From: Ignavibacteria bacterium
GTDB lineage: Bacteria > Bacteroidota > Ignavibacteria > Tepidaquicellales > Tepidaquicellaceae
Length of the DNA: 64,000 bases
Reading direction: 5' to 3'
Assembly: GCA_036262055.1 (NCBI GenBank)
Contig: DATAJP010000002.1
Span: 1,012,177 to 1,076,176 of the forward strand
Made by a program: the position numbers and the translations under genes. The number at the start of each line of letters is the position of its first letter. Positions within the stretch are counted from its first letter, which is position 1. The notes beneath the pieces were generated by a model, which was given only the letters and a program-made list of their open reading frames with translations, made no database searches and was not told the origin of the DNA. Below, piece after piece: positions 25,501-64,000 of the stretch.

Positions 25501-25519
25501 AGAAGGAATAATAAAAATT

Positions 25520-27616: not shown

Positions 27617-27817
27617 ATGAATAAAATAATTTTAAAATCATTAATTACATGCCCTCATTGTGCTTATTCAAAAGAAGAAATAATGCAGCAACATTCGTGT
27701 CTTTATTTTTATGTTTGTGAAAAATGTAATACATTCGTAAAACCAAAAGAAGGTGATTGTTGCATTTTTTGCTCTTATGGAACGGTAAAATGTCCACCCA
27801 TGCAAAATAATAATTAA
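27617..27817 (+). CDS. GDCCVxC-domain small protein
   Basis: 66 residues. Carries CPHC near the start and the signature GDCCIFCSYGTVKCPP. This is the GDCCVxC family, which occurs, sometimes with selenocysteine, in metal and mercury resistance operons. Nine Cys in 66 residues; probably a cytoplasmic metal-binding protein. It sits 5 bp before the pump gene, in the same transcript. The 108 bp upstream (27509-27616) shows nothing recognisable. Confidence 0.85.
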   Translation: MNKIILKSLITCPHCAYSKEEIMQQHSCLYFYVCEKCNTFVKPKEGDCCIFCSYGTVKCPPMQNNN

Positions 27818-27822
27818 TAATC

Positions 27823-30800: not shown

Positions 30801-31047
30801 ATTAAGACTGCGTCCGAAACTTATGACGGTAGCTGTAAATCTTTTAGGCTTAATTCCGATAATGTGGGCAACGGGAACAGGTTCAGATTTAGCAAAGCCG
30901 ATTGCCGTTCCTATGATTGGAGGAGTTATAACCTCTGCCATACATGTCCTTTTCGTTACTCCGATAATATTTGTAATGATTAAAGTTTATTTAAATAAAA
31001 AAGGTAAGCTGCATAAATCCGATATGGCCAAATTCTTGATTCATTAA
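27823..31047 (+). CDS. CusA-like heavy-metal RND efflux pump
   Basis: 1074 residues with 12 predicted TM helices. TM4 reads ISIGVLVDASIIMVENAYRNL, with a single Asp-Ala where the other pump (11532) has Asp-Asp. The segment MPSLDEGSLLFMPTTLPNVS and methionines around it (RIMQVQD, NMIETI) fit the CusA Met-rich path for Cu(I)/Ag(I). Works with the channel (19893) and adaptor (21317) from which it is separated by eight accessory genes. Confidence 0.93.
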   Translation: MIERIIEFSARNRFLILILYLFIAGYGIWCVYNTPVDAIPDLSENQVIVFTEWMGRSPQIIEDQITYPLTQSLQGIPDVKAVRSQSMFGMSFIYVIFEDRADVYWARSRVLEKLNQVKNLLPQGTIPVMGPDGTGVGHIFWYHLTSDKYDLGELRALQDYYLKYQLTSVPGVAEVASIGGFVKQYQVDIDPNKLASYGIGINEIVSSIRNSNRDVGGKNIESSDKEFFVRGKGYIQSAYDIETITIRNSEFGIPVRISDVGTVQIGGDTRRGLLDMNGEGEVVGGIIVMRYGENASEVIEKVKEKLIELQRGLPEGVKIETSYDRSGLIDNAINTLKNSLIEEAIVVSIIVMIFLFHFRSAIRILIEMPVSILIAFILMKQFNITSNIMSLGGLIISIGVLVDASIIMVENAYRNLAKAAEKNEKVNYTEISILSAKQVGRAIFFSIGIIVVSFLPVFMLEGQEGKLFHPLAFTKTFALAGSALITITLVPVLMTLFMRGKFYTEEQNPVSKFFQRLYRPALNLALKYRKITLTLNILALLITIPLILNRGSEFMPSLDEGSLLFMPTTLPNVSVTEAKRIMQVQDKIIKSVPEVAHVLGKVGRADTPTDPAPMNMIETIIILKDKSEWREGLTKNDIINELNSKLQIPGVGNAWTQPIINRINMLATGVRTDLGIKIFGDNLDTLERLAVEVEGIVKNVNGAADVFAERTQGGKYIDININREAISRYGLNIGDVHDVIETAIGGENITTTIEGRRRFPIRVRYFRDYREDIDKLKNVLVTVGSSPMNVGEGEMSEGSSINSSVKKFQLPLGELADIKITSGAPMISSENNMLRSIVFLNVRDRDMGSFVEDAKEVLNKEFAPNLPKGYYYVWSGQWENQIRAKERLQIVMPIVFIIIFIMLYMVFKNFLESLLVMLSVPFALIGGVYLMVILDYNFSVAVWVGFIALYGLAVETGVVMVIYLHEALDKKLIEKNDKVTTKDIIDATKDGAILRLRPKLMTVAVNLLGLIPIMWATGTGSDLAKPIAVPMIGGVITSAIHVLFVTPIIFVMIKVYLNKKGKLHKSDMAKFLIH

Positions 31048-31067
31048 TAATAATATCTAAATTTTTT

Positions 31068-31649
31068 ATGAAAGAGAAGTTTTATATAAAAAATATGGTT
31101 TGTCAAAGATGTATAAACGTTGTCAAAAACGAATTAGAAAATCTTGGAATAGAAATTTTGGAAATTGATTTAGGATATGCAGTGTTAAAGACCAAACCTG
31201 ACGCAATTCAGTTGGATAAAATAAAACAAGTATTGTTGACAAATGGTTTTGAACTTCTCGATGAGAAAAGAAGTCAGATTGTAGAACAAATAAACAATGT
31301 TATAATAAATCAAGTTCACCACAATAATAGTGATAAACGAGAAATGGAAAAGTATTCCGATTATTTATCGCGTAAATTAAATTTAGATTATAATTATTTA
31401 AGTAATCTTTATTCTTCAATAGAAAGTATTACAATTGAAAAATTTATAATATTGCAAAAAATTGAAAAAGTGAAAGAATTATTGGTCTATGATGAATTAT
31501 CTTTAGGTGAAATAGCTTTTAATTTATGTTATAGCAGTGTTCAGCATTTATCCAGCCAATTTAAGAATATAACAGGTCTTACTCCATCCCAATTCAAGTT
31601 AAATGCAGGGAACCGGAGAAAACCTTTAGATCATCTTTCAAATTCTTGA
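31068..31649 (+). CDS. HMA-AraC fusion regulator
   Basis: 193 residues. Residues 1-70 look like a heavy-metal-associated domain with the ligand loop MVCQRC; residues about 95-185 are an AraC-type double helix-turn-helix (LSLGEIAFNLCYSSVQHLSSQFKNITGLTPSQF). Fusing a copper-binding domain directly to a DNA-binding domain suggests a cytoplasmic copper sensor controlling this island. Location after the pump gene suggests feedback control. Confidence 0.8.
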   Translation: MKEKFYIKNMVCQRCINVVKNELENLGIEILEIDLGYAVLKTKPDAIQLDKIKQVLLTNGFELLDEKRSQIVEQINNVIINQVHHNNSDKREMEKYSDYLSRKLNLDYNYLSNLYSSIESITIEKFIILQKIEKVKELLVYDELSLGEIAFNLCYSSVQHLSSQFKNITGLTPSQFKLNAGNRRKPLDHLSNS

Positions 31650-31741
31650 AATTTTATAAATCATTTTAGGAATTTTATAACAGTTATGAGATTGACATTT
31701 CATAATTTTGTATAGTAACTTAACAAATTTATGATACTAAA

Positions 31742-32482
31742 ATGAAACATACATATAAAATACAAGGAATGAGTTGTAATTCATGTGTTAGTAAAATAGA
31801 GAACCAATTAATTAATACTACCGGAATTACTTCCGCCAAAGTTTCTTTAAATCCTCCGCAGGCAGAAATATCAATGTCAGAACATGTGGACACTGTAAAG
31901 CTAAATTTAATGTTAAGTAAAATAGGTAATTATTCTTTACAAGAAATTCATACAAACGGTACTTCTATATTAACAGAAGTATTAGCTGAAACCGAGTCGG
32001 AAAGTAAGTTTTTAACCTATAAACCTATAATTTTGATTTTTGTTTATTTACTGGGACTCGTTTTCTTAGGTGAGTTTCATAAGGGATATTTTTCTGCAAT
32101 GACTTTTATGAATAATTTTATGGGAGGATTCTTTATAACATTCTCGTTTTTTAAACTTTTAAATTTAGAAGGCTTTGCAAATGCATATTCATCTTATGAT
32201 ATTATAGCAAAAAAATGGAATCCCTACGGATACATCTATCCCTTTATTGAACTTTTTCTTGGAATTGCATTTTTAAGTTCATTTTTACCTTTTATTACAA
32301 ATTCAATTACTTTTATAGTAATGGCTGTAAGTTCAATAGGTGTTATTGAAAGTGTTTTAAAGAAAAACAAAATTCAATGTGCATGTTTAGGAACGGTGTT
32401 TAATTTACCAATGTCAACAGTTACAATTATTGAAGATTTGCTAATGGTCACCATGTCAGCGATAATGCTAATATTAATTTAA
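31742..32482 (+). CDS. HMA-MauE/DoxX-like fusion membrane protein
   Basis: 246 residues. N-terminal HMA domain with MSCNSC loop (residues about 10-15), then a membrane part of four TM helices (about 95-245) with the MauE/DoxX redox-associated pattern (GGFFITFSFFKLLNLEGFA, CACLGTVFNLPMSTVTIIED). The C-terminal CAC pair could be a thiol site. Likely couples copper handling to thiol redox at the inner membrane. Start is the ATG at 31742. Confidence 0.78.
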   Translation: MKHTYKIQGMSCNSCVSKIENQLINTTGITSAKVSLNPPQAEISMSEHVDTVKLNLMLSKIGNYSLQEIHTNGTSILTEVLAETESESKFLTYKPIILIFVYLLGLVFLGEFHKGYFSAMTFMNNFMGGFFITFSFFKLLNLEGFANAYSSYDIIAKKWNPYGYIYPFIELFLGIAFLSSFLPFITNSITFIVMAVSSIGVIESVLKKNKIQCACLGTVFNLPMSTVTIIEDLLMVTMSAIMLILI

Positions 32483-32492
32483 ATCAAAAAAC

Positions 32493-33872
32493 ATGAAAAC
32501 AATTATAATTTCAGTAATTTTGTTATTTATTTCAATTCAAGCTTTTGCTCAGCATGAACATCACGGTATGGACACAACAAAAAGTATGGATACTGTAAAA
32601 AATGATATACAAGAAATGCCTTTGGAAAAAGATTCTCTGGACATGCAACAAGAAATGTCTCATATGTTTTCATTAAGCCTTCCAATGAATAGAAATGGCT
32701 CCGGAACAGCATGGCTTCCCGACGAGTCTCCAATTTACGGATATATGGTTCATACTGATAACTGGATATTAATGTTTCATGGAAATATTTTTTTAAGATA
32801 CACAAGTACAGACATAACAAAAGAAGGTTCACGTGGTGCAAGTATGTGGGATGCACCAAACTGGTTCATGGGTATGGCTCAAAAGAAAATTGGCTCAGAT
32901 GGGTTGTTCAAAACCAGCTTAATGATGTCGCTTGACCGTTTAACAGAGAACGGCAACGGTTATCCGCTTTTGTTTCAGTCGGGGGAAACATGGAATGGAG
33001 AAAGACTAGTAGACAGACAGCATCCACATGATCTTTTTTCAGAGCTGAGCATTGCATACACTCAAAGAATTAATAAAGAAATTGACATTACAGGTTATAT
33101 AGGGTATCCCGGAGAACCTGCATTAGGACCAGTTGCTTTCATGCATAGGATATCAAGTTTTAACAATCCGGATGCTCCCTTGTCGCATCACTGGCAGGAT
33201 GCAACTCATATCACTTTTGGAGTTGGTACATTAGGAATTAGATATAAGCAATTTAAATTAGAAGGTTCCATTTTCTCAGGAAGGGAGCCTGATGAAAACA
33301 GATATAATTTAGACAAACCGCACTTTAACAGTTATTCAGGACGTATATCAATTAATCTCACTCCAAATCTTGCATTGCAAGTATCATATGCTTTTATTAA
33401 AAGCCCTGAAGCAATTGAACCGGATATAAACCTGCATAGAACCACGGCATCAATAATACATAGTTATAATTTCCCTTCATTAGGAAAACTTAATTCAACT
33501 ATTGCATGGGGGCTTAATGATAAAGGAGACAATCATAAAGAACATTCATTTTTGTTGGAAAGCAATTTACAATTAAATAGATTAAATCTTTATAATAGGT
33601 ATGAGTTTGTTCAAAAGGATCCAGAAGAATTAAACTTAAGTGGGTTTGACCATGATGCAAAATTTAATATAACTGCTTTGACGATTGGAGCTAATTATGC
33701 AATTATGCAATTTAACAATTTGAATTTGTCATTGGGCATTCAGGGAAGTGTATATTTTACACCGGGAGATTTGAAAACTATTTATGGAGCAAATCCAATT
33801 TCCGCTCAGGTCTATTTTAAAATTTCTCCTCCGCTTATAAGCAATAAAAGTAATATGCCAAATCATCACTAA
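32493..33872 (+). CDS. His/Met-rich outer-membrane-like protein of copper islands
   Basis: 459 residues. Signal peptide cut after AFA-Q; the mature N-terminus is rich in His and Met (HEHHGMDTTKSMD, MQQEMSHMF). The rest is aromatic beta structure (WLPDESPIYGYM, SGETWNGERLVDRQHPHDLF) and probably a barrel. Similar proteins, usually unnamed, accompany cus/cop clusters in Bacteroidota. It may bind copper at the outer membrane like PcoB, but homology to PcoB is not evident to me. Confidence 0.65.
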   Translation: MKTIIISVILLFISIQAFAQHEHHGMDTTKSMDTVKNDIQEMPLEKDSLDMQQEMSHMFSLSLPMNRNGSGTAWLPDESPIYGYMVHTDNWILMFHGNIFLRYTSTDITKEGSRGASMWDAPNWFMGMAQKKIGSDGLFKTSLMMSLDRLTENGNGYPLLFQSGETWNGERLVDRQHPHDLFSELSIAYTQRINKEIDITGYIGYPGEPALGPVAFMHRISSFNNPDAPLSHHWQDATHITFGVGTLGIRYKQFKLEGSIFSGREPDENRYNLDKPHFNSYSGRISINLTPNLALQVSYAFIKSPEAIEPDINLHRTTASIIHSYNFPSLGKLNSTIAWGLNDKGDNHKEHSFLLESNLQLNRLNLYNRYEFVQKDPEELNLSGFDHDAKFNITALTIGANYAIMQFNNLNLSLGIQGSVYFTPGDLKTIYGANPISAQVYFKISPPLISNKSNMPNHH

Positions 33873-33885
33873 TAATTAAAAATAT

Positions 33886-34356
33886 ATGAATATGGAAACA
33901 AATATGAGTAAAAAACATTACGTCTCTTTGATTATAATGATTTTTCTGTCATTTATTTCAATGTATGTATTTATGTATGCTATGGTAGACACCTTTACAA
34001 ATGTTTATTCAAATTTAAACCAAGTATATATGGCAGGTTTAATGACAGCATCAATGATAATTATTGAAATATTGTTAATGCGGACTATGTATAAAAATAA
34101 AAGATGGAACCTTATTATTCTTGTGTTTAGTGTCTTTCTATTGGCGGGATGCTTTCTTTTTATACGGCAGCAGACAGCCATTGGAGATAAACAATTTTTA
34201 AGGTCAATGATTCCACATCATGCAGGTGCAATTCTAATGTGTGATAAAAGCTCTATTCAGGATCCGGAAATACAGGAATTATGCAGACAAATTAAAATAA
34301 GCCAGGAAGCAGAAATTGAACAAATGAAAGCTATATTAAATAGATTAGATCAATAA
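33886..34356 (+). CDS. DUF305 membrane protein
   Basis: 156 residues. Three TM helices (about 13-95), then a helical tail with FLRSMIPHHAGAILMCDKS, the DUF305 signature with paired His and Met. DUF305 proteins are often found with copper genes and are thought to bind metal through HH and M ligands. Two further ATGs (33892 and 33904) are in frame, so the exact start is unsure. Confidence 0.82.
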   Translation: MNMETNMSKKHYVSLIIMIFLSFISMYVFMYAMVDTFTNVYSNLNQVYMAGLMTASMIIIEILLMRTMYKNKRWNLIILVFSVFLLAGCFLFIRQQTAIGDKQFLRSMIPHHAGAILMCDKSSIQDPEIQELCRQIKISQEAEIEQMKAILNRLDQ

Positions 34357-34426
34357 ATTAAAGGCTATTTCTAATTACGTTTTTAAATGTTTCCAAGTGT
34401 TCATTAAAAACCTTAAAATAATTACA

Positions 34427-34684
34427 ATGAAAAGAAAAATTGAAGTATTCGTTTCGGACTGTCCAATTTGTATTGAAACAGTTAAAAGAATTAAAACAGA
34501 AGCATGTCAAAATTGCGACATTGAAGTGCTGAACATAAAAGAAGATAAGGATGCCTTAACAAAGAGCAGAGAATACAATGTTAAGCATGTTCCGTCAGTA
34601 GCAATAGATGGTAAATTAGCATCATGTTGTGAAAACGGAGGAATTGATATTGAAGTATTAAAAAATCTTGGATTAGGAAGTTAA
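34427..34684 (+). CDS. Thioredoxin-fold small protein
   Basis: 85 residues from the ATG at 34427; an in-frame GTG ten codons earlier lacks a ribosome site. The N-terminus EVFVSDCPICIETVKRI has a CPIC redox pair in the thioredoxin position, cis-Pro region HVPSVAIDG, and a SCCENGG tail with two more Cys. Glutaredoxin/thioredoxin-like proteins of this size help reduce copper or thiols. Last gene of the island. Confidence 0.75.
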   Translation: MKRKIEVFVSDCPICIETVKRIKTEACQNCDIEVLNIKEDKDALTKSREYNVKHVPSVAIDGKLASCCENGGIDIEVLKNLGLGS

Positions 34685-40810: not shown

Positions 40811-40837
40811 AAAATGCCCGTTTAAAATGGGCATTTT
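40811..40837. terminator. Bidirectional terminator
   Basis: AAAATGCCC and GGGCATTTT form a perfect 9-bp stem around a 9-nt loop, with A/T runs on both flanks. It ends the minus-strand block at 40836 and the plus-strand cassette. Confidence 0.8.
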
Positions 40838-43800
40838 ACAAGTATCTTTCTTCATCATCAATCTTTTCTGCTTTAATATATTTATTTAAATAATTAATAT
40901 TTTCATTTGCCCAAGTTCTTATTATATCATTTTTATGGTTTGATAAATTTTCATAAAGAATTAGTTCAGATCTAAGTAATGGAACAAGTGATCCAGTCCA
41001 AGAATACGAACCCATATTTGCACTTATTTCATTCAATACCTTTCTATCACTTCCAAATTCATTTATAAATTGCAAAGTAAAGGAATGCCATTCGTTTCGT
41101 TTTTTATTACTAAAAATGGGCAAATATCTTGCTATTCTCTGTGGTGCTAATGGAATATTTTTTTTACACCAATCCAAAACTAATTCATTATTACTCTTAA
41201 ACAACAAACCATTCTTATTGTCAAAATTTTTTTGAAGGTCTTCAGAAAAATTATCATTAAATTCAATTCTCGAGCCAATTAAATGCATTAAATGATAGTA
41301 TGTCATAAAATCTGAGAGAAGAGCTTGAGATAATACTGGCCAAATTTCTGTAAAATATTTAGGTAATAAATGTGTAAGAATATTTTGAATATAAAGTTCA
41401 AAATTATATTTATAATCTTCTTGACTACACATATCAATAATTTCATTCATTATGTGTATAGCAAATAAAGTATCATTATCTTCTTCTAAAATTTTAACTG
41501 TATACTGTTCCCAATAGTGCTCTATCATATTGAGATTATGACTACCAATTAATCCTTTTTTAGACAGTATTTCTTTAATTCCAGTTTTGTATTGAGCCCA
41601 ATTTTGTTTATTCCTAAATGCCAAATTAGAATAAATTGATAACGCAATTAATGCTCCCAACAAATTAAACTCTGATATTTTTTTTAATAATTTATAATTT
41701 GTTTCAAATTTTAATTTTTCAATACTTCTACTATATCGAAAACTAAGAAGTAGTTTAAGATTGTTTAACTTATTGGCTAAATTTATTAAGTTATCAAATA
41801 TTTCTTCATCTACATATGTTGAACTGCTGATATCAAACGAATACTTTGCAATTTTATCATCATTGATAAACTTTAAAATTATATCTTTCACAATTTCTTT
41901 ATTTTCAATCCCGATTAAAAATCCAATAAATACAATTATATTTAAATTTTCATTAGAATTTTTAAAATAATTAATTGATTTTTCTATAAAAACATTTCGA
42001 TTTTCTGAATTCAGTAGTGTCCCCAATTTTTCACCGAAATAATATCCATTATGTTGATAATCATTGTAAATAATATCAAAAGAGTATATGAGTTTGTTAA
42101 AATTATTACCAAATTCAATTGCTATTTTCTCGGAAGTTTGCTTTAGTTTTTCAGTATAACTATCATTCTCTCCAATTTCATCTTCAATTGCAGAACTTTT
42201 AATAAAAAGTTTATATTTTTCTAGAATATCTTGTGGGGTTAACTTTAAAATAAAATCTGACAATGTTGTCTTTTGTTCTGGTGTTAATATATCTTTCTCA
42301 TATTTCAAGGATAATTGTAAATCATTTCTTGCCTCATTCCATAAGAAATTTTTCTCGGTTGCAATTGTTTTAATTATTGGTATAATAAGATCAAACAAAC
42401 CGTGACTTATTAAGCCTCTTATTGAATTTGAAAGTATATTTTCTGCCTCGTTGGAAAACTCATTTTTTTCTTGATAAATAAGATATAATAAATTGAGACA
42501 TTTTATCCAATAATCATCACGCTCTTTAAATGTTGGTTTAAAATCAATTAATGATTTCGAAGAACCTTGATTTTCGGCACCGACGTCACGTGTAAAATAG
42601 TGAGTATGAAGTGCAGACTTTAATGCATCTACTGCGATTTTCTTGTAGTCAATATCACGCGAATAAGAATATTTGATAATATTAAATCGCTCCTCAAGAG
42701 TTGCCTCTGTTGCCGGCAAAATTACATGAAATCTTTTTAAAAACTCACCGGTTGCATTATTTGCCCAACTTTCATTTTCAGCTACAGCAAAATTTAGTAA
42801 CACCTTCATTCCATCACTAAAAGTTTCTTTCCTCCATACAATTTTTTCTAAAGCCCAAATCAAATTCCTTCTTCCTTTATCAATTTTAAATAAATTTTCT
42901 TTACTCATATTTCCAAATATTCTAACTAATGCATTGGTACATGCTGATGGGTTCACTTCAACTAAAGAGCGGAAGAGGCGTGAACCCAGTTCAGTATTAA
43001 GGACTTCCGCTTTTCCAAAAGGGGCTTGTTCTCCACATAATTTTTCAACGAATTCTTTCGTCTGTTCTAAAAAATCTAAATATCTTAATTGATCACATAG
43101 AGCTGAGCCGAGATTATTACTCGTTATATCCAATAATATATCCTCTAAAATATCTGGTTGGACAGTTTCCCACCATTTAGCAGCTAATGTAATAGCTAAT
43201 GGTTTAGGTTTTAAAAAAATATACCTACCTCCTTGTTCTATCAAACCTTTTTCTTTATATTTTACACAGGTTTCATAAAATTTTTTCTTGCAAGTTTCAT
43301 CGTCAAAATTTAGACCGCAAAGTCTTTTGTTACACGCTACAAAATTCATTTCAACTTGTCGATCTTCACTAAATCCAAGTTTATCAAAAATTGCTAGCGT
43401 TTTTAAAACCTCAAACTCATCATTATTTATATCACTTCTTCCAAATATAAGTTTTCTTAAAAGACTATCATTATTTATTCTTCCGATATTGGAATCCTCT
43501 TTTAAATATTGGTCACTTAATAAAACAGCTAGAAGTGGAAATCCCTTCACAAATTCTTTGATCTTATCTACATCTTGATTATTTAGATCCGGGAATAAAT
43601 CTTTGATAATTTCTGTTATTATATTATCTAAATTTTCCGGTTTAATTAATATTGAATTTATTTCATCAATACTATCATATCTTTCAGCCGTTTCGTAATC
43701 TATTGAGATTAGATTAAGCTTACTATCGATTCTTTTAATTTCGCCTTGCAATTTTTGATGCAAAGTTAGTTCACAGTTATCTACAATAAGAATGCCTTTT

Positions 43801-44702
43801 AAACCATTATCTATTAATTTAGTTACAAAGCCATGTATATCCGTTCCAGGAATTAATGCATCAAAATAAATTATTGAACTTTTTAAAAGTTGTGTTTGTA
43901 AATTGTCATTAGAATTATTTTTAAAAGATTCATAAATAAGTCGAGTTTTACCTAATCCTGATAATCCATTTATTCTAATAGTCTGTCTAGTCTTTGCGAC
44001 TGAATTTTGTAATTCAGTTACTTTTTTTTGAAGAAATGAGTTGCTTCGAAAAATATTCTGAAAATCTGCTCGCATTCCTAATATATTCATTGATTTGATA
44101 CCATCAGGAATTCTGATACCTACACGGCAATCATATAAATAATTAACTGCTTGGAAATATTGATTTGCCCAATCAGCGATTTTATTTGCATCATATACAT
44201 CCACTTTTATGTCATTATAATTTTTAAAATCTACATCTTTAAAGGCTTCTTTTACTTTTTCAATTCTTTTCTGTATAGCATTCTTTGTATAATTTTTATT
44301 TATAAATAAAATATAGGAACCATCTTTGTCAATTACATCTTTAATCCGTTTTTTTATTGTAGTAGTTAGATTATAAACTTTACCATTTACATTTATTTTA
44401 CTTATTTTATCGGAAACCTCTAATTTGCACTGTTCAGGGCTCATTGGAGATGCTTTCGATTGAAAAATTGTTAATGGAGAGTTAATATAATTACTATTTT
44501 TATACCACTCATTTTTATCTGTTTCTTCCCACTCTATTCTTGCATCCTCTCCTCCATCTGCGACTGTTAAATTTAATGGAACTGTAACAGCTGATAGTGG
44601 AATCTCTGATTTTATTGCTTCTAATTTTAAAAGGAGTTTTAGAAGACTTACAAATTGAAAAGGGTTTAAACCTTCAATATGTTTAAAGGTTATTGGTTCC
44701 AT
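40836..44702 (-). CDS. Nuclease-STAND NTPase protein (Avs-like)
   Basis: 1288 residues. Residues about 40-90 show a PD-(D/E)xK-like pattern: ADGGEDARIEW (Glu52, Asp53) followed by TIFQSKA (Gln81-Ser-Lys83). A STAND-type P-loop follows with Walker A GLSGLGKT (246-253) and Walker B ILIVDNC (about 304-310). The remaining 900 residues are helical repeats. This nuclease, NTPase, repeat-sensor order is that of Avs antiviral proteins, which recognise phage proteins and cleave DNA. It starts 4 bp after the helicase stop, so it belongs to the same operon. Which phage protein is sensed is unknown. Confidence 0.75.
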   Translation of the reverse strand: MEPITFKHIEGLNPFQFVSLLKLLLKLEAIKSEIPLSAVTVPLNLTVADGGEDARIEWEETDKNEWYKNSNYINSPLTIFQSKASPMSPEQCKLEVSDKISKINVNGKVYNLTTTIKKRIKDVIDKDGSYILFINKNYTKNAIQKRIEKVKEAFKDVDFKNYNDIKVDVYDANKIADWANQYFQAVNYLYDCRVGIRIPDGIKSMNILGMRADFQNIFRSNSFLQKKVTELQNSVAKTRQTIRINGLSGLGKTRLIYESFKNNSNDNLQTQLLKSSIIYFDALIPGTDIHGFVTKLIDNGLKGILIVDNCELTLHQKLQGEIKRIDSKLNLISIDYETAERYDSIDEINSILIKPENLDNIITEIIKDLFPDLNNQDVDKIKEFVKGFPLLAVLLSDQYLKEDSNIGRINNDSLLRKLIFGRSDINNDEFEVLKTLAIFDKLGFSEDRQVEMNFVACNKRLCGLNFDDETCKKKFYETCVKYKEKGLIEQGGRYIFLKPKPLAITLAAKWWETVQPDILEDILLDITSNNLGSALCDQLRYLDFLEQTKEFVEKLCGEQAPFGKAEVLNTELGSRLFRSLVEVNPSACTNALVRIFGNMSKENLFKIDKGRRNLIWALEKIVWRKETFSDGMKVLLNFAVAENESWANNATGEFLKRFHVILPATEATLEERFNIIKYSYSRDIDYKKIAVDALKSALHTHYFTRDVGAENQGSSKSLIDFKPTFKERDDYWIKCLNLLYLIYQEKNEFSNEAENILSNSIRGLISHGLFDLIIPIIKTIATEKNFLWNEARNDLQLSLKYEKDILTPEQKTTLSDFILKLTPQDILEKYKLFIKSSAIEDEIGENDSYTEKLKQTSEKIAIEFGNNFNKLIYSFDIIYNDYQHNGYYFGEKLGTLLNSENRNVFIEKSINYFKNSNENLNIIVFIGFLIGIENKEIVKDIILKFINDDKIAKYSFDISSSTYVDEEIFDNLINLANKLNNLKLLLSFRYSRSIEKLKFETNYKLLKKISEFNLLGALIALSIYSNLAFRNKQNWAQYKTGIKEILSKKGLIGSHNLNMIEHYWEQYTVKILEEDNDTLFAIHIMNEIIDMCSQEDYKYNFELYIQNILTHLLPKYFTEIWPVLSQALLSDFMTYYHLMHLIGSRIEFNDNFSEDLQKNFDNKNGLLFKSNNELVLDWCKKNIPLAPQRIARYLPIFSNKKRNEWHSFTLQFINEFGSDRKVLNEISANMGSYSWTGSLVPLLRSELILYENLSNHKNDIIRTWANENINYLNKYIKAEKIDDEERYL

Positions 44703-44706
44703 TATT

Positions 44707-46824
44707 TTATGTTATTACTTTTATTTTTTCCAAAAATAATTTTGTGTTTTGAAAATCAAAATAATTATCTCTTAATAGATTTTTCTGATATTTAATTGGT
44801 AAATATTTTCCCCACTTAGAAAAATTTAGTAATGACGAATTAGCCAAAAGTTTTTCCTCAATTTTAGGTTCTATATTATTTAGTAGTACACATAATCTTT
44901 TAATGAGGTTATTAAAATCTTTATAATCAATAGAAATCTCAAAACTACTACTATTTTCATTATATATTGAATTAATTTCTGATTCATTTAATAAAAATTG
45001 CAAACTTTTATTGACTCTAGTTCCCTGAAATGAATATAAAAGTGTTTTATCATGTTTAGCAATAACTGGTCTATCTGTTGCAAAATTTTCTATCTTAAAA
45101 TGAGAAAATTCTTTTCGAAATATTTGTAAAATATCTTTACAAGTATCATTTAACTCTTCATAAGAAATTTCAGTGAATAAAATTTCTAACATCTTTTCTC
45201 TTATCTTTGGATGAATATTTCCACCAGTTCCTAAGAATAAGGGTTTTTTCCCATCTTTAGCTGGTATAACTTCAACTTTATTTGATTTCAGATCTACATC
45301 AACAATTTTCCATACCTTCGCTGCTAAAAATATATTCTCATTTATTTGCAATTGAGGCGTAAATGGTATTTCACCTATAGACTTTCCACTATTAAGAACT
45401 TTAAGTTGTAATTCAGTTTTAAACATACTGTAAAAATCACGTGAATTCGCTATTTGTTCACCTGCAACTCCAATAATTAACTCATTCTGTAAAAGTTCAA
45501 GTAAATCAGTTTTAATTAGTTCATCTATAATTTCACTTATTTCAGTTTCAGTAATTTTCTGAAATGAAGGATTTGATAAAAGAAGTGATATTAAATCAGG
45601 TTTTGAACATGCGGATAATTGTTTAACAATTGAAAGAGCTTGATGTAATAAAATATCATAAGGTTTTTCCGAAAAATGGACAGGTTCAACAAAACCTTCT
45701 TTATATAATAACCAACAGGCTAAAGACTGTAATAAATTCCATTTATCAGTTGAATATAGTATTAAATTTCCAATTTCACCTTCTCTCCTGCCACTTCTTC
45801 CAACCCTTTGGATAAGAGAAGATACCGAATGAGCTGAATCTATTTGAACGACTTTATCAATTGTTCCAATATCAATTCCCAATTCTAAAGTTGAGGTACA
45901 AGATATACAAAAATTATTTCTTTGATTATTTTTAGCAAAATGTTCTGTGTATTCTCTTAGTTCTTTATCTACTGAAGAATGATGAGAAAAATAATAAAGA
46001 TGGCCTTTTACTTTTTCAGCAATTTTTTTAAGTTTCACCGCAATTTCTTCTGCTCTACCTCTGCTATTAGGAAATATCAATGCTTTATTATCTTTTGTCT
46101 CAAGATATAAATCTTTAATTAAATCTATTGGTAATTCCATAGTATCAGATTCGAAATATTTAAATTGAGCTTCCAATTCACGGGATGTTTTATCGAGTAA
46201 AATTATAGTATTATCTTCATCACATGTTATTTTTTTCGCCTCAACATAATCTCCAATAGTTGCTGAGAGTCCTACTACATTGAACTTATTATTAATTTGT
46301 TTTAGTCTAAAAATAAGTGAGCGTAACTGCGTTCCTCTGTCAGTTCCTAAAAAAGAATGAATTTCATCAATAACAATAAATTTTAAATTTGAGAATAAAT
46401 GTTTTACATTGTAAGGAGCATTTACAAGCATTGCTTCTAGTGATTCGGGTGTAATCAAAACAATATCTCTTGGATTTTTTAAAAGTTTTTGTTTTAAAGT
46501 TTTATTTGCTTCACCATGCCATTTCGTTACATCAATATCTAAATACTTACAAAGTTCTTCAATCCGAACGAATTGATCATTTATAAGAGCAATTAGAGGC
46601 GAAATATAAAGAACTTGAACACCCTTTTCTTGAAAATTCACCTTTGATATGATTGGTAAAAATGCAGCTTCAGTTTTTCCTGAAGCAGTTCTTGATGCTA
46701 AAATATAATTACTATTAGTAGAAATTATTTTAGTTATAGCGGCAAGTTGAATTGGACGTAATGTTTCCCATTTTTTATCATAAATATATTTACGGATAAG
46801 AGGAGATAATAAGGTAAGCGGCAT
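44707..46824 (-). CDS. Lhr-like DEAD/DEAH-box helicase
   Basis: 705 residues. SF2 motifs: Walker A RTASGKT (45-51), DEIH (153-156), SAT (187-189), and motif VI QRVGRSGRREG. The family style (RPIQLAAI..., VGLSATIGDY) is Lhr/BrxHI-like. It starts within the ATPase stop (one-base overlap at 46824). Operon context with DUF2791 and TerB-C points to a DNA-processing defence complex. Confidence 0.85.
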   Translation of the reverse strand: MPLTLLSPLIRKYIYDKKWETLRPIQLAAITKIISTNSNYILASRTASGKTEAAFLPIISKVNFQEKGVQVLYISPLIALINDQFVRIEELCKYLDIDVTKWHGEANKTLKQKLLKNPRDIVLITPESLEAMLVNAPYNVKHLFSNLKFIVIDEIHSFLGTDRGTQLRSLIFRLKQINNKFNVVGLSATIGDYVEAKKITCDEDNTIILLDKTSRELEAQFKYFESDTMELPIDLIKDLYLETKDNKALIFPNSRGRAEEIAVKLKKIAEKVKGHLYYFSHHSSVDKELREYTEHFAKNNQRNNFCISCTSTLELGIDIGTIDKVVQIDSAHSVSSLIQRVGRSGRREGEIGNLILYSTDKWNLLQSLACWLLYKEGFVEPVHFSEKPYDILLHQALSIVKQLSACSKPDLISLLLSNPSFQKITETEISEIIDELIKTDLLELLQNELIIGVAGEQIANSRDFYSMFKTELQLKVLNSGKSIGEIPFTPQLQINENIFLAAKVWKIVDVDLKSNKVEVIPAKDGKKPLFLGTGGNIHPKIREKMLEILFTEISYEELNDTCKDILQIFRKEFSHFKIENFATDRPVIAKHDKTLLYSFQGTRVNKSLQFLLNESEINSIYNENSSSFEISIDYKDFNNLIKRLCVLLNNIEPKIEEKLLANSSLLNFSKWGKYLPIKYQKNLLRDNYFDFQNTKLFLEKIKVIT

Positions 46825-48134
46825 TATATTTCTTCTATACTATCTAAGTTTTCTTGTGGTCTTTCATCTTTAATTTCAATTTCACCAAATAATTTTTTCT
46901 TATCAATTTCAGGATTTTGTCTAATTATACTTAATATATTTAAAAAATCTCTAATAACTTCACGTGGAGTTAAAAATTCATGAGCACCCGGCTTATTGAA
47001 CATCTCTTCCATAAATAGATGAACCTCCGCATCAGAAACATCAAGTGTAATATTATAATTAAATTCAAAGACCTCCTTCAATTTATTCAATAACACAAAA
47101 ACTTGATTATTATCTAAAGGCATTAATCTTATAACTGGTTGAGCAAAATCCCTAATTTCTACAGTTTCAAATTTATTTGTTTCTAATCGCGATTTCAAAG
47201 CTTGATAACTAAACAATCCTCTTCGTTCATTTTCTAGAAATTCTTTGGTTCCAGCAAAATTAATAAAGAAATTAGAAATTTTACCTTGAAAACAATCATT
47301 ATAAATAGATAAAATTTTTTCATAATTCTTTTCTCTCATAACCGAAGTTGAAATCTTATACAAATTTATAGCTTCATCAAGATTTATCATAAAACCATTA
47401 TAACCAATGTTAACAAACAATTTGCAAAAATTCTTTAGCATATCATAATAGTTAATATCATTTATTATTTCACGAACTCCTAAATCTTGTCTTGCCTCAG
47501 TTTTAGTTCTGTATTCTCCTTTCAACCATTTCAGTGCATTTTTTTTTAACTGTTCATTATCTGTTATGTAACCTTCATAATATTTCATTACTACAACTCC
47601 AAAATCAAAACCTCCGGTATCAGTAATTTCATTTATTGTTTTAAGAATATTATCATTAATTAAATTTAAATACTTTTCATTTCTTATCTCTGATAAATGG
47701 ATATTATTTTCTCTTGCTGTTTTTTCTACAACATTAACAATCCATTTTTCTAATAACGTAGGAAGCGCACCTCCTTCAGGTTTCGTTTGAATTGAAATAT
47801 TATCTATTATTGCGGAATACAATATTACACCTTTAAAATCATTGGAATACAATCTATTATCTGGCGTAAAATCTGCATTTGCTACTACAAACTTTTGTTT
47901 CAAAGCAACTGTATTTAATAAATGAAGCATAAAAGATTTTCCAGAACCAAAATCACCGATCCAAAACTTTACGATACTATGCCCATTTTTTACATCCTCT
48001 AACGCTTGTACAAATGCGTCAATCTCGGAGGAACGTCCAACTGTAATATGTTGAACTCCTATTTTAGGAACCACACCTCCTAATAAAGAATTTATAATTG
48101 CAGTTGCTTCTTTTGGCTTAATATTAATTGCCAT
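46824..48134 (-). CDS. BrxD/DUF2791-like P-loop ATPase
   Basis: 436 residues. Walker A GDFGSGKS (60-67), Walker B around MINLDEAINLY, a RHIT-like segment GVQHITVGR near residue 26. This is the DUF2791 type, the BrxD ATPase of BREX type 2 and of other helicase pairs. Start ATG at 48134, overlapping the previous gene by 11 bp. Likely loads or activates the Lhr-like helicase downstream. Confidence 0.82.
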   Translation of the reverse strand: MAINIKPKEATAIINSLLGGVVPKIGVQHITVGRSSEIDAFVQALEDVKNGHSIVKFWIGDFGSGKSFMLHLLNTVALKQKFVVANADFTPDNRLYSNDFKGVILYSAIIDNISIQTKPEGGALPTLLEKWIVNVVEKTARENNIHLSEIRNEKYLNLINDNILKTINEITDTGGFDFGVVVMKYYEGYITDNEQLKKNALKWLKGEYRTKTEARQDLGVREIINDINYYDMLKNFCKLFVNIGYNGFMINLDEAINLYKISTSVMREKNYEKILSIYNDCFQGKISNFFINFAGTKEFLENERRGLFSYQALKSRLETNKFETVEIRDFAQPVIRLMPLDNNQVFVLLNKLKEVFEFNYNITLDVSDAEVHLFMEEMFNKPGAHEFLTPREVIRDFLNILSIIRQNPEIDKKKLFGEIEIKDERPQENLDSIEEI

Positions 48135-49827
48135 TTAACTTTATTTTTTGATAATAATTTTGGTTTAAAGAGTAATTTACTTCTAAATCTTCAATTAAAA
48201 TATCATCCAAAAATTCATAACAGGATTCATTTATGCTATCTATCAATTGATTTTTAAAGACTCCATTGTTTTTTGAAAATGCCTCAATCTCATTAACCGA
48301 AAGATTAAACGAATTTTTACTGAATAATTCAATTAACTGTATTTGAATAGGATTTAACTCAATTTCGTCAATAAATAACTTTTGAAGATTATTTTCAGTT
48401 TTTATAATTATATCTAATTCCATTTCTTCACTATTTATTTGTTTGATATTAATGCTCGCATTGCTATCTTCATAGTCATCCTGTAAAAATTCATTTAATA
48501 ATTCTACTGTATTTGAATGCTGACTTTTAACATTATCTATTATTGCTTTATCAAGTTTAATTTTTTTTCGTTTCGGTAAATAAATTTTCTGAATTTGGTT
48601 AATAGCCACATCTAAATTTTTAGTCTTAATTAATTCGCTAACTATTTTTTCAAATTCATGAATTTGTTCAGTATTTTTAAAAAGCGTTTTTTGAATAGTT
48701 TTTGTTAGCTTCTTATTGTCAAATTTATCAGACTTTAAATCATAATATAAATAATGAATATAGAATTTTAAGGATTCAGTATTATCATATTTAGAAATGA
48801 ATTTTGAAGCTTCAAAATAAATATTTTCAACTGAAGAGTTTTTTTTATTAAGTTTAACTAATTCATGAATTTTATCAATAAAGTTTTCTTTTGAGTTCTC
48901 ATTAAAATTAATTGTTAGATGCTCAAGTTTTAATTTCCATCTATTAACATTCTGTATATTTAATTCAATCTCCGTTGCTTCATCCGGTTGGCTTATAGAA
49001 TCAGACGATTCTTTAATTATCTCGTTAACTATTGAGCCTATCCGACTTTCAAATAAGTCTTTTAACTTTGGTTCATAGTATGAAAAATCAGTAGATATTT
49101 TTCGTTTATGATTATACGATTCTCTTAACTTACTCTCTGCTCGTTTAAATATCGTTAAAAAAATATCTGATTCTATTTTTTCTTTTGCCCAAATATATTC
49201 ATAATCAGACCAATAAGTCGCATAAGTTGGGGTATAATTAGTTAATTCCTGTTTGAAGAAATCCACTTCCATTTGTATTGATGAATCATTTCTTTTTAAT
49301 TTATTGTTAAGTGATTTAATTGTTAACAAATAAAGTTTTATCGTTTCTATGCAACAGCCTTCAATAGATAAAAACACATTATTTGGATCCCAAAATTTAT
49401 TTAGCCATGAAACTTCTTGATTACTTAATCCTAATTTTTGTTTATATCTTTTACCTAACTTTAATTCATTATAATTATCTTCATCAATTTTTTTACTATA
49501 AACAGCTTCAGTATTTGGATTATTTTCATTTGAACTGTATGAAATTTGTGGCGGATCAATTTTATAATCAATAGTTACTTCAATGATAGATTTATCTTTA
49601 AATTTATCTTTAGATAATTGGGGCTCTTGCACTTGTGAATTCTTTAATAAATGTTGATTTGTAGCATTATAAGCATTAGGAATTTTATTAATACTATTTG
49701 TTTTATTAGTAGACTTTTTATTGAAATTCTTAATAAATATATAAGTTAAGAATGATATTATAGCAATAATTACGATAAAACTCATAGAAATTAGTAAAAT
49801 ATAAAATAATTTTTCAGTTAGCGGCAC
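48124..49827 (-). CDS. TerB-C-domain membrane-anchored protein
   Basis: 567 residues. One N-terminal TM helix (about 9-33). The C-terminal region (NPIQIQLIELFSKN...SVNEIEAFSKNNG...NESCYEFLDDILIEDLE) matches the TerB-C pattern seen in tellurite/stress-response associated proteins. Middle part helical and Lys/Asn-rich. TerB-N/C proteins are known to travel with DUF2791 ATPases and helicases. First gene of the block; the TM segment may tether the complex. Confidence 0.65.
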   Translation of the reverse strand: MPLTEKLFYILLISMSFIVIIAIISFLTYIFIKNFNKKSTNKTNSINKIPNAYNATNQHLLKNSQVQEPQLSKDKFKDKSIIEVTIDYKIDPPQISYSSNENNPNTEAVYSKKIDEDNYNELKLGKRYKQKLGLSNQEVSWLNKFWDPNNVFLSIEGCCIETIKLYLLTIKSLNNKLKRNDSSIQMEVDFFKQELTNYTPTYATYWSDYEYIWAKEKIESDIFLTIFKRAESKLRESYNHKRKISTDFSYYEPKLKDLFESRIGSIVNEIIKESSDSISQPDEATEIELNIQNVNRWKLKLEHLTINFNENSKENFIDKIHELVKLNKKNSSVENIYFEASKFISKYDNTESLKFYIHYLYYDLKSDKFDNKKLTKTIQKTLFKNTEQIHEFEKIVSELIKTKNLDVAINQIQKIYLPKRKKIKLDKAIIDNVKSQHSNTVELLNEFLQDDYEDSNASINIKQINSEEMELDIIIKTENNLQKLFIDEIELNPIQIQLIELFSKNSFNLSVNEIEAFSKNNGVFKNQLIDSINESCYEFLDDILIEDLEVNYSLNQNYYQKIKLNGN

Positions 49828-60807: not shown

Positions 60808-62064
60808 TTACGAAATTGTTATATCAGGGGAGAATCTAAGCTTTTCTTTGTAAATTTTCCTCATGACCAATTTTAGCTCATTTTCATGTTGTTTTTCAAT
60901 TATGAATGAATCATGAACTACCAATACCATAATCCCCTTTTTAGCAAAGTGCAAAAGTATCTCATGAGCAATTTCAGCATCCATATTTTGAAGTTCCAAG
61001 CCAATCCCGGTGAAAAAATACTTGGCAATCTTTTTGTGTTTATCTTTGAATAACTCAAGCATGGGCTTCAACGTTCGGTCTGTTAAATCGGGAAGCAGTG
61101 ATTGAAGGCCGCCGGTTTTTAATTCTTCTCTGAATGCTTGTATACATTTTTTTTCATCAACTGAATTTAAACAAGTTAAAGCCAGAAGCTTAAATATGGA
61201 ACGGAGCTTGGGCATCCTTTTACACAAATCATCATACGGGTCTGTCTTTGGTTTTATTCCTTCTTTATGATACAGCATATTTAAATGCAAAGCTTTATAA
61301 TCGAGCTCTACAGTTTCATTACCGTTTATCATTAAATACTTCCTGATTGCCTTAGGCATATTGCTTTCGACTCCTCTATAGAACCTGCCGCCGTGTAAAA
61401 AGTTGTCATTAAATATCCGGACAAGATAAGTAGTTCTAAGGTCAATATTTGTCTTTTTATCCTTCCTCTCGATTTTTTCAGCAAAATACAATGCATTTCC
61501 ATCTTTCAATAAATCCGCCGGTACATTCTTCAATGAAACCTTATTCTTAGCTCTCACATTATTAATTAGTTTCACTTCTTCGCTGAGTTTCATAGTCAAG
61601 GCAGTATCAACATAATCTATATCAGATTTTTTACCGTTATCATTCTTTCGCAGGATTATACTTTCATATGGTATGCATTCTTCAATTTCAGCTGAATCAT
61701 TCAAAATTTTAAACAATTTATCAGTTCCTATGTATGAATCCGGTTTTTCACCTTTTGCTCCCAGCTGCCGGACCATATAACCATTCTTTTCTAGTTTATC
61801 CAATATTTCAACGCTTGTTTGGTAATTCTGTATATTCTGCTTATATCTCGGGGGTATGAATGCATAGTAGTTCTTCGCCCTAGAAACCATAAGCTCATTC
61901 CCGGACTTTTTGCAAATAAACAAGTTTGCTATTAGGCAGCTTAGAAATTCCTTTTTTTGGTCAGTTTTCTTGTTTATGACCTTAAGTTCTGAAATTACCA
62001 TATTAAGCTTTTCAGTGTTCTTCAATCTTAAATTATAGTTTATAAATTTATTCTTTGTTAGCAT
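60808..62064 (-). CDS. Minimal family-A DNA-polymerase-palm-like protein
   Basis: 418 residues. The C-terminal half has family-A polymerase palm motifs: motif A-like VELDYKALHLNMLY (Asp255), a GGRFYRG approach near 226, LALTCLNS fingers-like helix, LELQNMDAEIAHEIL, and motif C-like VVHDSF (His384-Asp385-Ser386). No 3'-5' or 5'-3' exonuclease domain is present. N-terminal 200 residues are Lys-rich and helical. Such stand-alone proteins occur on plasmids and phages. Preceded by a promoter-containing divergent region (62065-62190). Confidence 0.6.
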   Translation of the reverse strand: MLTKNKFINYNLRLKNTEKLNMVISELKVINKKTDQKKEFLSCLIANLFICKKSGNELMVSRAKNYYAFIPPRYKQNIQNYQTSVEILDKLEKNGYMVRQLGAKGEKPDSYIGTDKLFKILNDSAEIEECIPYESIILRKNDNGKKSDIDYVDTALTMKLSEEVKLINNVRAKNKVSLKNVPADLLKDGNALYFAEKIERKDKKTNIDLRTTYLVRIFNDNFLHGGRFYRGVESNMPKAIRKYLMINGNETVELDYKALHLNMLYHKEGIKPKTDPYDDLCKRMPKLRSIFKLLALTCLNSVDEKKCIQAFREELKTGGLQSLLPDLTDRTLKPMLELFKDKHKKIAKYFFTGIGLELQNMDAEIAHEILLHFAKKGIMVLVVHDSFIIEKQHENELKLVMRKIYKEKLRFSPDITIS

Positions 62065-62152
62065 AGTTTATCTTTACCTTATAATATTGCATTTGAATGT
62101 TGTCTAACAAAATTTCCGAACACCATAATTAATTAAGTATCTAATAAAGTAG

Positions 62153-62183
62153 TTGACAAATAAAGAAATATTTATTAGCTTTG
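62153..62183 (+). promoter_or_regulatory. Promoter TTGACA / TAGCTTTG
   Basis: TTGACA at 62153-62158 is followed 20 bp after its TTG by TAGCTTTG at 62176-62183, a TAnnTTTG -7 element. Transcription should start near 62190, giving a leader of about 340 nt before the ATG at 62530. Confidence 0.6.
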
Positions 62184-62189
62184 TATCAG

Positions 62190-62426
62190 TATAATTTAAT
62201 TTTGTTCTATAACAATATCGCAAAAATCAATTTGAGGCAGTAGCGAAATGCCACTGAATAAAAGAGAAGTTAACCTCAACCTACAATCGGCATGGTTAGT
62301 CCGATACTAAATTTCGAAGATTGTTCATAAATCGAAATCTCACACGATGTAACATTCCGTGTACCAATAATCTAAGTCACAGATTTAATAATTTATAATT
62401 TACGACTGCAGAAAGCAGTGTTTTTT
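62190..62426 (+). ncRNA. Structured leader or small RNA ending at a terminator-like hairpin
   Basis: From the promoter onward the strand can form TTGAGG/CCTCAA, ATCGG/CCGAT, ATTTCGA/TCGAAAT, ACACG/CGTGT and AATCT/AGATT helices, then ACTGC-AGAAA-GCAGT with a T6 run at 62421-62426. It could be a 235-nt RNA of its own or an attenuated leader. No Rfam class recognised. Confidence 0.45.
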
Positions 62427-62528
62427 ATAATATTCAGATTTTACATTTCTGTGTTAAAGGATAATGGCACAAATTTAATAATTTATTTTTTAAAACGACT
62501 GCAAAAGCAGTGTTTTTTATAATATTCA
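62383..62528 (+). repeat. Two tandem terminator-like repeats abutting the ATG
   Basis: Copies at 62383-62436 and 62473-62528 share ATTTAATAATTTAT, GACTGC-loop-GCAGTG, T6 and ATAATATTCA. Stems at 62405-62419 and 62498-62511. The second copy ends 1 nt before the ATG at 62530, so no ribosome site is possible between. Attenuation or RNA antitoxin-like repeats are candidate roles. Confidence 0.6.
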
Positions 62529-62529
62529 T

Positions 62530-63258
62530 ATGAAAATTATGAAAACTATAATAACAATAGGTAGCTCTTCAGAGTTACCTAAGCTCTTATCAAATATTGA
62601 AAGAGCCGCAAAAGATCCAAATGATAAAGAAATTTTAATCTTTGGATGTGAAAAGCTTAGCTACAACGATGTTGAAGAACTAAGCAATAGAATTAAGCAT
62701 ACCTTGCCTAATGCAAAAATTAAGGCAGTTTCTAATTTGAATCTGAAAGGTATGCTGATACTCTGTTCTGCGAAAAAAGAGAACAGAAATATCGAACCAG
62801 GACAAGCTGTTAGTATTGATCCAGCTGTTCTCAATGATCCTGAGGTATTAGAACTCCTTGAAAGAGTACTTTGCAAACAAAGCGCTTCAAAACTCAATGA
62901 TGAAAGTTTAAGGAATCTCTTATTTGGAAACACAAAACTCGATGCCAAGCTCTTAAAAAAACATGGCTTGTGCACGAGCTTCCAGGGAGAAAAGGTTAAT
63001 AGAAAGAAAACCTCCTCCAAAGCTCCGTCATTAGGTGCAGCATCTTCAAAGGCAGCGAAAGACAAAAAGACGGACGCTGACCAGTCCGGTGCCTCAACTG
63101 ATAAGCCTGTGAAGAAGGAAAAAGAAACGGTCACTATGGTTGTATCTGAAACTGTTGCAGAAGGTAGTAAAGATGAAAAAGGAAATAATCTACAATCGAA
63201 CACTCAAACAGACCTTAAAGTGGGAAAGGAGAATAAGAAATTGTTAAGTTCACTATAA
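62530..63258 (+). CDS. Lys-rich protein of unknown function
   Basis: 242 residues; another ATG three codons in. Residues 1-90 look alpha/beta (KTIITIGSSSELPKLL, KEILIFGCEKLS, AKIKAVSNLNLKGMLILCSAKK) with a vaguely ClpP/crotonase-like strand order but no clear catalytic residues. Residues 150-240 are Lys/Ser/Ala-rich and disordered. No family recognised. It is preceded by the repeats and followed by the 131-nt inverted repeat. Confidence 0.5.
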   Translation: MKIMKTIITIGSSSELPKLLSNIERAAKDPNDKEILIFGCEKLSYNDVEELSNRIKHTLPNAKIKAVSNLNLKGMLILCSAKKENRNIEPGQAVSIDPAVLNDPEVLELLERVLCKQSASKLNDESLRNLLFGNTKLDAKLLKKHGLCTSFQGEKVNRKKTSSKAPSLGAASSKAAKDKKTDADQSGASTDKPVKKEKETVTMVVSETVAEGSKDEKGNNLQSNTQTDLKVGKENKKLLSSL

Positions 63259-63507: not shown

Positions 63508-64000
63508 ATGATCTTTAATCCTGTTATATCACCAGTAATAATTTCCAGTGTTGCATCTACTTACACTGATACATATCGCGTCTTGATGGAATACATTGAT
63601 AACTCAATTGATGCTGCGTCATTAAGAATTAATCCATTAACCCATAAAACCATTTATCAAAACGATGCTGAAATTATCATTAATATTCGGGGAAGTAATT
63701 ATGCGGGAGGCAGCATAACAATAACAGATAACTGTAAAGGGATTTTTAAATTAATAGATATTTTACAAAATATAGGTTTCTCAAACAAGAAATCTCAATC
63801 ATGGACAAATGGGAATTTTGGTTTTGGAATATATTCTTTTATGGCTGTCTGCAACAGACTTGATATAATAACTAAGTTCAAAGGAAAAAACTTTGCTGAA
63901 AAAGTTACAGTTACTAGAAATGACTTTGAAAAGAAAAGTATTTCAGATGTGAACCTAAATATCACAACTGTAAGAGCAGATTTTGCCGAACATTATACAG
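63508..64000 (+). CDS. GHKL/MORC-like ATPase, 5' part
   Basis: Open from ATG 63508 to the window end (164 residues). GHKL boxes: N-box EYIDNSIDA (Glu29, Asn32), Asp74 in TDNCKGI, and GNFGFGIYSF (about 102-111). It resembles the MORC/HSP90-type ATPases found in bacterial defence and DNA-compaction systems. The 3' part is outside the window, so the effector domain is unknown. Confidence 0.75.
   Translation, partial: MIFNPVISPVIISSVASTYTDTYRVLMEYIDNSIDAASLRINPLTHKTIYQNDAEIIINIRGSNYAGGSITITDNCKGIFKLIDILQNIGFSNKKSQSWTNGNFGFGIYSFMAVCNRLDIITKFKGKNFAEKVTVTRNDFEKKSISDVNLNITTVRADFAEHYT

Follow-up and report, generated by a model that had tools for sequence, protein, structure and literature searches.

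Close to the right end of a 64,000-nt stretch of an Ignavibacteria bacterium genome (the window; GCA_036262055.1, contig DATAJP010000002.1, here C2, positions 1,012,177-1,076,176 of the forward strand) lies a gene for a protein with two polymerase-like motifs and no exonuclease region, which raises the question of what kind of polymerase it encodes and what DNA this polymerase serves. A sequence-only reading had described a 418-residue open reading frame at 60808-62064 with motif A at D255 and motif C at D385, and both the frame and these positions are exact (the first residue of DYKALH is 255 and that of VHDSF is 383). A permissive pattern spanning motifs A to C (D[YFG]xx[ILMV][EHQ], 80-260 residues, HD[ES]) was found in 28 of 20,000 shuffles of the protein; judged from sequence, motifs A and C alone would be a fair but not certain lead, and residue conservation across relatives is the stronger support. 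Since the genome also encodes a separate full-length DNA polymerase I, the palm protein is distinct from the housekeeping enzyme.

Fold and active site of the palm protein

The gene and the parts of its product referred to below are:

Window 60808..62064, minus strand: palm gene, 418 aa (open reading frame with ATG start)
Residues ~17-126: N-terminal domain, winged-helix-like (AlphaFold2 model and fold matches)
Residues ~127-220: middle region with one long helix, 155-173 (AlphaFold2 model)
Strands 215-219/225-229: beta hairpin carrying R227 (AlphaFold2 model)
Palm/fingers residues: D255 (motif A), H260 (steric-gate position), D275, R288xxxK292 (motif B), L296, N300, D362, H384-D385-S386 (motif C)

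The AlphaFold2 model was computed from an alignment of 74 sequences (A2; 18 of 92 loci were excluded as partial or redundant) and has a mean pLDDT of 94.2 and a pTM of 0.92. It matches family-A polymerases across residues ~130-418, and the best solved matches in Foldseek are family-A DNA polymerases (Plasmodium apicoplast polymerase, Klentaq and Bst, E from 3e-6). With VIA-align, where rows differing by no more than 1 Z were treated as ties, we obtained the apicoplast polymerase 5dkt (Z 14.9, 246 residues, 4.0 Å), the yeast mitochondrial RNA polymerase 8q63 (Z 14.0, 264 residues, 4.0 Å) and T7 DNA polymerase 1tk8 (Z 13.2), while the closest viral models are uncharacterised phage proteins, one of which is labelled DNA polymerase. 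The model and its family-A structure matches thus bear out the suggestion of a reduced family-A-type palm without exonuclease domains. At the position of the thumb the model has one long helix (155-173) and otherwise strands, and a standard thumb is not evident. The first 130 residues fold on their own (pLDDT 89), and the 50 matches listed for this domain by Foldseek and VIA-align are mostly winged-helix proteins of the LmrR, MepR and MarR type (best Z 7.3, Foldseek E 0.03). A profile search of the PDB gave a PadR regulator as best match (E 0.23, over the N-terminal part), and this weak match spans the winged-helix-like part; together the model and these matches lend moderate support to a putative winged-helix-like domain. 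The best match in a PDB search with the single sequence (E 0.53) was a chance match.

Profile comparisons were run with hhalign. With broader profiles (mact 0.1) the family aligned to Pol I with an E-value of 0.0011 (probability 21%) and to T7-like RNA polymerases with 0.00081 (24%), and despite these low probabilities (about 20-24%) the alignments run through motifs 1, A, B and C in the right register. An initial comparison with a narrower profile of Pol I gave E 0.024 and T7 RNA polymerase alone E 0.047, the latter with only motif C aligned; single sequences of T7 DNA polymerase (E 0.38) and E. coli Pol I (E 0.29) were not in register, and the global mode yielded no significant alignment (E 0.41 and 0.95). 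Sequence by itself is therefore insufficient, and it is the fold and the register that establish the kinship with family A. In the Pol I alignment D255 falls on D705, R288/K292 on R754/K758 and D385 on D882, and the GRFY...NMP segment, which like motif B (R288xxxK292) goes beyond what the sequence-only reading had noticed, aligns with GRLSS...NLQNIP. In the alignment with T7-like RNA polymerases the TRSVTK motif is the counterpart of R288/K292, the LAYG Tyr (Y639 of T7 RNA polymerase) lies opposite N300, and HDSF coincides with HDSF.

That reading had hinged on a palm fold and on conserved motif A and C residues; the fold is present, and D255 and D385 are, together with R241 and K292, invariant in 104 of 104 aligned relatives. 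R227 is kept in 103, R288 in 102 and D275 in 98 of these 104. That the palm protein folds as a family-A-type polymerase and that its catalytic core is intact we consider close to certain. The residues around this core differ from those of Pol I. The position of Pol I F762 (L296 in the window protein) is Leu in 65/104 relatives and Phe in 1/104, and Glu occupies the position of the E710 gate (H260) in 2/104 of the same alignment. Among 110 members the gate position is His in 100, Glu in six, Gln in two and Asn and Trp in one each; the position of the O-helix Tyr, Pol I Y766, is Asn in 106 and Tyr in two; and motif C reads HDS in 103, HDA in one and FDE, YDE or HDE in six. The members with a gate Glu are exactly those with a Glu in motif C (6/6 vs 0/104), namely the Vibrio phage proteins of ICP1, 1.063.O, 1.101.O, 501E54-1, 249E41-1 and R16F. 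Because all six fall in one clade (support 0.974) this covariation counts once, as what looks like a single evolutionary event, and as evidence of a functional link it is weak: suggestive and no more.

Tandem islands at a tRNA-Lys gene

The sequence-only reading had also pointed to a conjugation cassette, a link that finds no support: neither PF03432 (relaxase) nor PF02534 (coupling protein) is matched in the genome. The element is an integrase-bearing genomic island at tRNA-Lys; the cargo proteins that were scanned belong to metal efflux and to Shango-type defence, and one is E1-like, whereas its other reading frames were judged by eye. The features are (positions of the window unless marked C2):

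9209..9284, minus strand: intact tRNA-Lys gene (anticodon CTT), attachment gene of the islands (ARAGORN)
9240..9394, plus strand: attL repeat, 155 nt, tRNA-Lys 5' half and 5' flank (repeat comparison)
~9240 to C2:1079018: island 1, ~57.6 kb, ending 2.8 kb past the window (att repeats)
C2:1079019-1119717: island 2, ~40.7 kb (att repeats)
10010..34684, plus strand: metal-efflux cargo with two ACR_tran (RND) pumps, two HlyD-type fusion proteins (one with a heavy-metal-binding domain), an outer-membrane efflux protein and a P-type ATPase (Pfam; six open reading frames of the stretch scanned)
40836..49827, minus strand: defence cargo with SngA, SngB and SngC (Shango-type) and a PD-Lambda-4_A-like protein of 1288 aa (PADLOC)
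62065..62529: intergenic region between the divergent palm and 242-aa genes, with two copies of a 25-nt direct repeat
62530..63258, plus strand: 242-aa protein, first gene of a divergent operon that continues with the GHKL ATPase, HTH and integrase genes
63508..64000 and past the window end (C2:1075684-1077342), plus strand: GHKL (HATPase_c_3) ATPase, 553 aa (Pfam)
C2:1077497-1077850, plus strand: HTH_17 protein (Pfam)
C2:1077866-1078891, plus strand: tyrosine integrase (Pfam)

The attL repeat recurs directly after the integrase gene (C2:1079019-1079173, 144/155 identical) and again at C2:1119718-1119858 (126/142 identical), and these copies delimit the two islands. The duplicated part, the 5' half of the tRNA with its 5' flank, corresponds to a 5'-type attachment site. 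The GC content is 31.7% in island 1 (its in-window part) and 29.7% in island 2, compared with 35.9% and 35.4% outside. Island 1 ends in the order palm gene (minus strand), 242-aa gene, GHKL ATPase, HTH_17 and tyrosine integrase (all plus strand) and att. In island 2 we find a palm paralogue, a 262-aa gene (C2:1101635-1102420), a GHKL ATPase and an integrase; the two palm genes lie ~25 kb apart and their products are 38% identical, with 38.6% identity between the GHKL proteins and 49.7% between the integrases. The 242-aa and 262-aa proteins, which share the position upstream of the GHKL ATPase, do not find each other by BLAST at a cut-off of E 0.01, and neither the first nor the second matches a Pfam family (over the cut-off in the case of the 242-aa protein). 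Since ~14 kb separate the island 2 integrase from the att copy on the right, that island may be composite. New here, besides the gate, O-helix and motif C counts across the 110 members, is the setting: the palm gene lies in a tRNA-Lys(CTT) island that adjoins a second island with a paralogue, and palm, GHKL ATPase and tyrosine integrase genes are kept in both.

The intergenic region 62065..62529 is a possible promoter/regulatory or origin region. The exact 25-nt direct repeats (62412-62436 and 62504-62528), in both of which a short GC stem and a T run can be seen, precede the 242-aa gene. We considered iterons of a replication origin and set the idea aside, two copies being too little for an origin call. 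A repeat search in 8.6 kb of island 2 returned short two-copy families only, and the four Rfam matches in 60500-64000 are all under their gathering scores.

With respect to other cargo, inspection by eye revealed heavy-metal efflux genes in island 2 (C2:1107398-1116116) similar to those of island 1. Both islands (window 37062-40398; C2:1093338-1096618) also contain a cluster of a ThiF/E1-like protein (PADLOC E1-E2 models), a protein of 295 aa and one of 247 aa that by eye is JAB-like, possibly a ubiquitin-like conjugation module. Vsr-like and C5-methyltransferase-like reading frames were likewise seen by eye in the islands.

Relatives, neighbourhoods and published systems

Across Pfam, PHROGs and NCBIfam the sole match to the palm protein is phrog_4756 (function unknown; E 2.8e-53), and our literature search found no paper that mentions phrog_4756. 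NCBIfam and PADLOC each gave no match, a Pfam match to P8_CR (E 0.02) is below the cut-off and at chance level, and PF00476 (DNA_pol_A) is absent from the protein's Pfam matches up to E 10 as well as from the 25 families listed for the 74 members. PF00940 matches weakly in 3/74 members (best E 0.0061).

Relatives are present in 248 phage records (115 Rheinheimera, 105 Vibrio, 14 Aeromonas and others) and in three plasmid records, in 7/40 genomes related to the window's own and in 8/296 genomes of the phylum; single-protein scans of viral_contigs gave no confirmed relative. Among 262 candidate stretches from a species-wide collection, 230 encode a relative. We retained the best 80 of these 230, whose hosts are Alphaproteobacteria, Desulfovibrio and relatives, Nitrosomonas, Ignavibacteria and Bacteroidetes bins, and a Mycolicibacter. 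One partial locus (L042) was excluded from the counts and near-identical pairs (e.g. L038/L039 and L092/L118) were counted separately. Some members have long C-terminal or N-terminal extensions (L056, L106 and L036; e.g. 758 aa in L106 and 775 aa in L036). The member in Vibrio phage ICP1 (L163:1501-2805) is annotated as a hypothetical protein and is of the Glu/YDE type.

Counted by protein cluster, a tyrosine recombinase lies within 7.5 kb of the family gene in 51/92 loci and a serine recombinase in 16/92; PF00589 is matched by 55 of the 56 tyrosine recombinase proteins. For 38 genome loci, hand-picked from the 80, a recombinase is nearby in 28, compared with 1.9 expected from a background of 492 PF00589 matches in 154.3 Mb. 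Phage_integrase (15) and Resolvase (7) are also the commonest Pfam families among 147/155 immediate neighbours, and a D5 helicase occurs at most once among these 147. The assignment to a mobile-element and phage type is upheld. A GHKL gene is near the palm gene in 4/92 loci, all from related Ignavibacteria/Bacteroidetes (L044, L049, L050 and L053); in the last of these the genes diverge just as in island 1, with HTH and integrase genes. In L046 the integrase abuts a tRNA-Asp gene, and restriction genes are found near some other family members.

The protein belongs to a kind that is already known, being a homologue of divPolA2 with most features of the TV-Pol family. The name divPolA2 was given in 2024 to phage proteins (barbaviruses and Vibrio phages) for which a repair polymerase or an RNA polymerase was suggested (PMC11348598). 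Our family profile (A4) matches the published divPolA2 protein AUR84708.1 with E 1.2e-51 and the Barba19A member with E 4.8e-102, the latter being itself a row of the profile. As described in the divPolA2 section of that paper, these proteins have, like the window protein, an N-terminal globular domain, an active palm, no homologous thumb and no exonuclease, and are similar to both Pol I and mitochondrial RNA polymerase (PMC11348598). AUR84708 comes from the atypical phage clade with a gate Glu and an FDE motif C, whereas the window protein has His and HDS and resides in a bacterial integrative island, a setting absent from the divPolA2 section of PMC11348598.

The TV-Pol family was described by Iyer, Abhiman & Aravind (2008), who proposed prim-pol activity (PMC2579912). 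Shared with the window protein are the conserved hairpin Arg, two palm Asps, the fingers Asp and RxxxK, the lack of a nuclease and a length of 400-600 aa, and also genomic hot spots in which restriction genes accompany integrases of the lambda type and gamma-delta resolvases, and host groups such as Loktanella, Paracoccus and Rhodobacterales (PMC2579912). The usual partner of TV-Pols is a D5-type helicase, and one subset is linked to recombinases instead (PMC2579912). The differences are that the window's genome lacks a D5 helicase (no match to PF08706) and that a two-helix thumb is not evident in the model; profile A4 found no match in the record of the named TV-Pol source Ma-LMM01. Set against the published text description of the family, TV-Pol membership is likely, though short of certain.

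A biochemical precedent among the systems compared is CCPol-MP of SCCmec, in which an exonuclease-free family-A polymerase primes DNA de novo together with MP (PMC7581432). CCPol, which is counted among the TV-Pols, requires its OB-fold partner MP and the D5-family helicase Cch2, keeps the Pol I gate residues (E174 and F225) and uses dNTPs only (PMC7581432), and as regards the choice of sugar this precedent therefore cannot be transferred. In Bacillota there are related PolA-SSB pairs (PMC10061031). These primases resemble the window protein in being exonuclease-free family-A polymerases of integrating mobile elements with a proposed role in replication or priming (PMC7581432, PMC10061031), and CCPol differs from the window protein in that the latter carries H260 and L296 at the gate positions, is fused to a winged-helix-like domain and comes from a genome devoid of D5 helicase.

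Proposed function and alternatives

Our best reading, to which we assign a probability of roughly 0.55, is that the palm protein works as an exonuclease-free polymerase of family-A type, active on behalf of the integrative island that encodes it, which it would prime or replicate. This builds on a polymerase fold with conserved catalytic residues, an island integrated at a tRNA gene and a strong association of the family with site-specific recombinases, all of which are observed. From these we infer that the protein would be catalytically active, would prime de novo and would take part in replication of the island. In such a scheme the tyrosine integrase would excise the island from tRNA-Lys, the N-terminal winged-helix-like domain would bind island DNA, and the protein would prime, and perhaps extend, DNA synthesis such that the circle is copied before it is re-inserted or lost. 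As no replicative helicase was identified in island 1, replication would need a helicase of the host. Sugar selection may be relaxed, with primers made from or including ribonucleotides; this least certain step is suggested by the replacement of the Glu gate by His, of the O-helix Tyr by Asn and of HDE by HDS as in T7 RNA polymerase, and we consider it doubtful that the window protein uses ribonucleotides.

The same residues, HDS in motif C and no gate Glu, would also fit a dedicated single-subunit RNA polymerase of the T7 type that transcribes island genes with the winged helix as promoter reader. The structural match to mitochondrial RNA polymerase, which nearly equals that to Pol I, the comparable profile score (E 0.00081 for T7-like RNA polymerases), the weak PF00940 matches in 3/74 members and the naming of an RNA polymerase as an option for divPolA2 (PMC11348598) point the same way. 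We nevertheless regard this as unlikely: Asn is present in 106/110 members where T7 RNA polymerase keeps its O-helix Tyr, the protein has no N-terminal domain of the size found in these polymerases and at 418 aa is half as long as T7 RNA polymerase (883 aa), and no repeated promoter-like site was found in the one intergenic region and the one 8.6-kb stretch searched. A DNA polymerase that repairs or fills gaps during excision, integration or recombination, and is not a primase, would likewise account for the recombinase association and for the Pol I-like Glu pair in the six phage members. Tyrosine recombination requires no DNA synthesis, the host has its own Pol I and the gate is not Glu in 104/110 members, all of which make this role unlikely. 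The phage members of the divPolA2 type reside in genomes with other DNA polymerases and in variable neighbourhoods (PMC11348598), and this placement beside a separate replicative polymerase, which speaks for repair, fits a repair or accessory role as well.

The wealth of defence genes in the islands (Shango-type, besides the Vsr- and C5-methyltransferase-like frames) and the restriction genes near other members could be taken to mean that the polymerase acts against phages or competing elements, or is an effector that makes non-templated nucleic acid. This we find very unlikely given that no PADLOC model matches the protein, that its gene pairs with integrase and GHKL genes and not with defence genes, and that phages themselves carry family members. 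Even less credible is a catalytically dead relic kept as a DNA-binding scaffold, which the unusual gate and O-helix residues might suggest; across phyla and phages, none of 104 members has lost either metal-binding Asp, the Lys of motif B or R241.

Returning to an island-serving polymerase, we tentatively consider, as a conjecture with the odds against it, that the bacterial-island branch might represent a third kind of family-A-fold primase, with a fused winged helix, a His-gate/Asn/HDS site and a ribonucleotide (or mixed-sugar) start, and thereby a living intermediate between Pol I and T7-type RNA polymerase, with the Glu/Glu phage branch (including ICP1) as its dNTP-preferring sister. If true, the family would hold a natural switch of sugar selectivity. 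Polymerases of this type sit between Pol I and the T7/mitochondrial RNA polymerases, and where in this superfamily the choice between RNA and DNA sugars originated is an open question; the two natural versions of the active site (His/HDS and Glu/DE) in one fold, together with the many bacterial sources, make direct testing feasible. Finally, our data link the divPolA2 phage protein, of which the cholera phage ICP1 encodes a member, to the core genes of integrative islands in bacteria whose cargo includes genes for metal resistance and for defence against phages.
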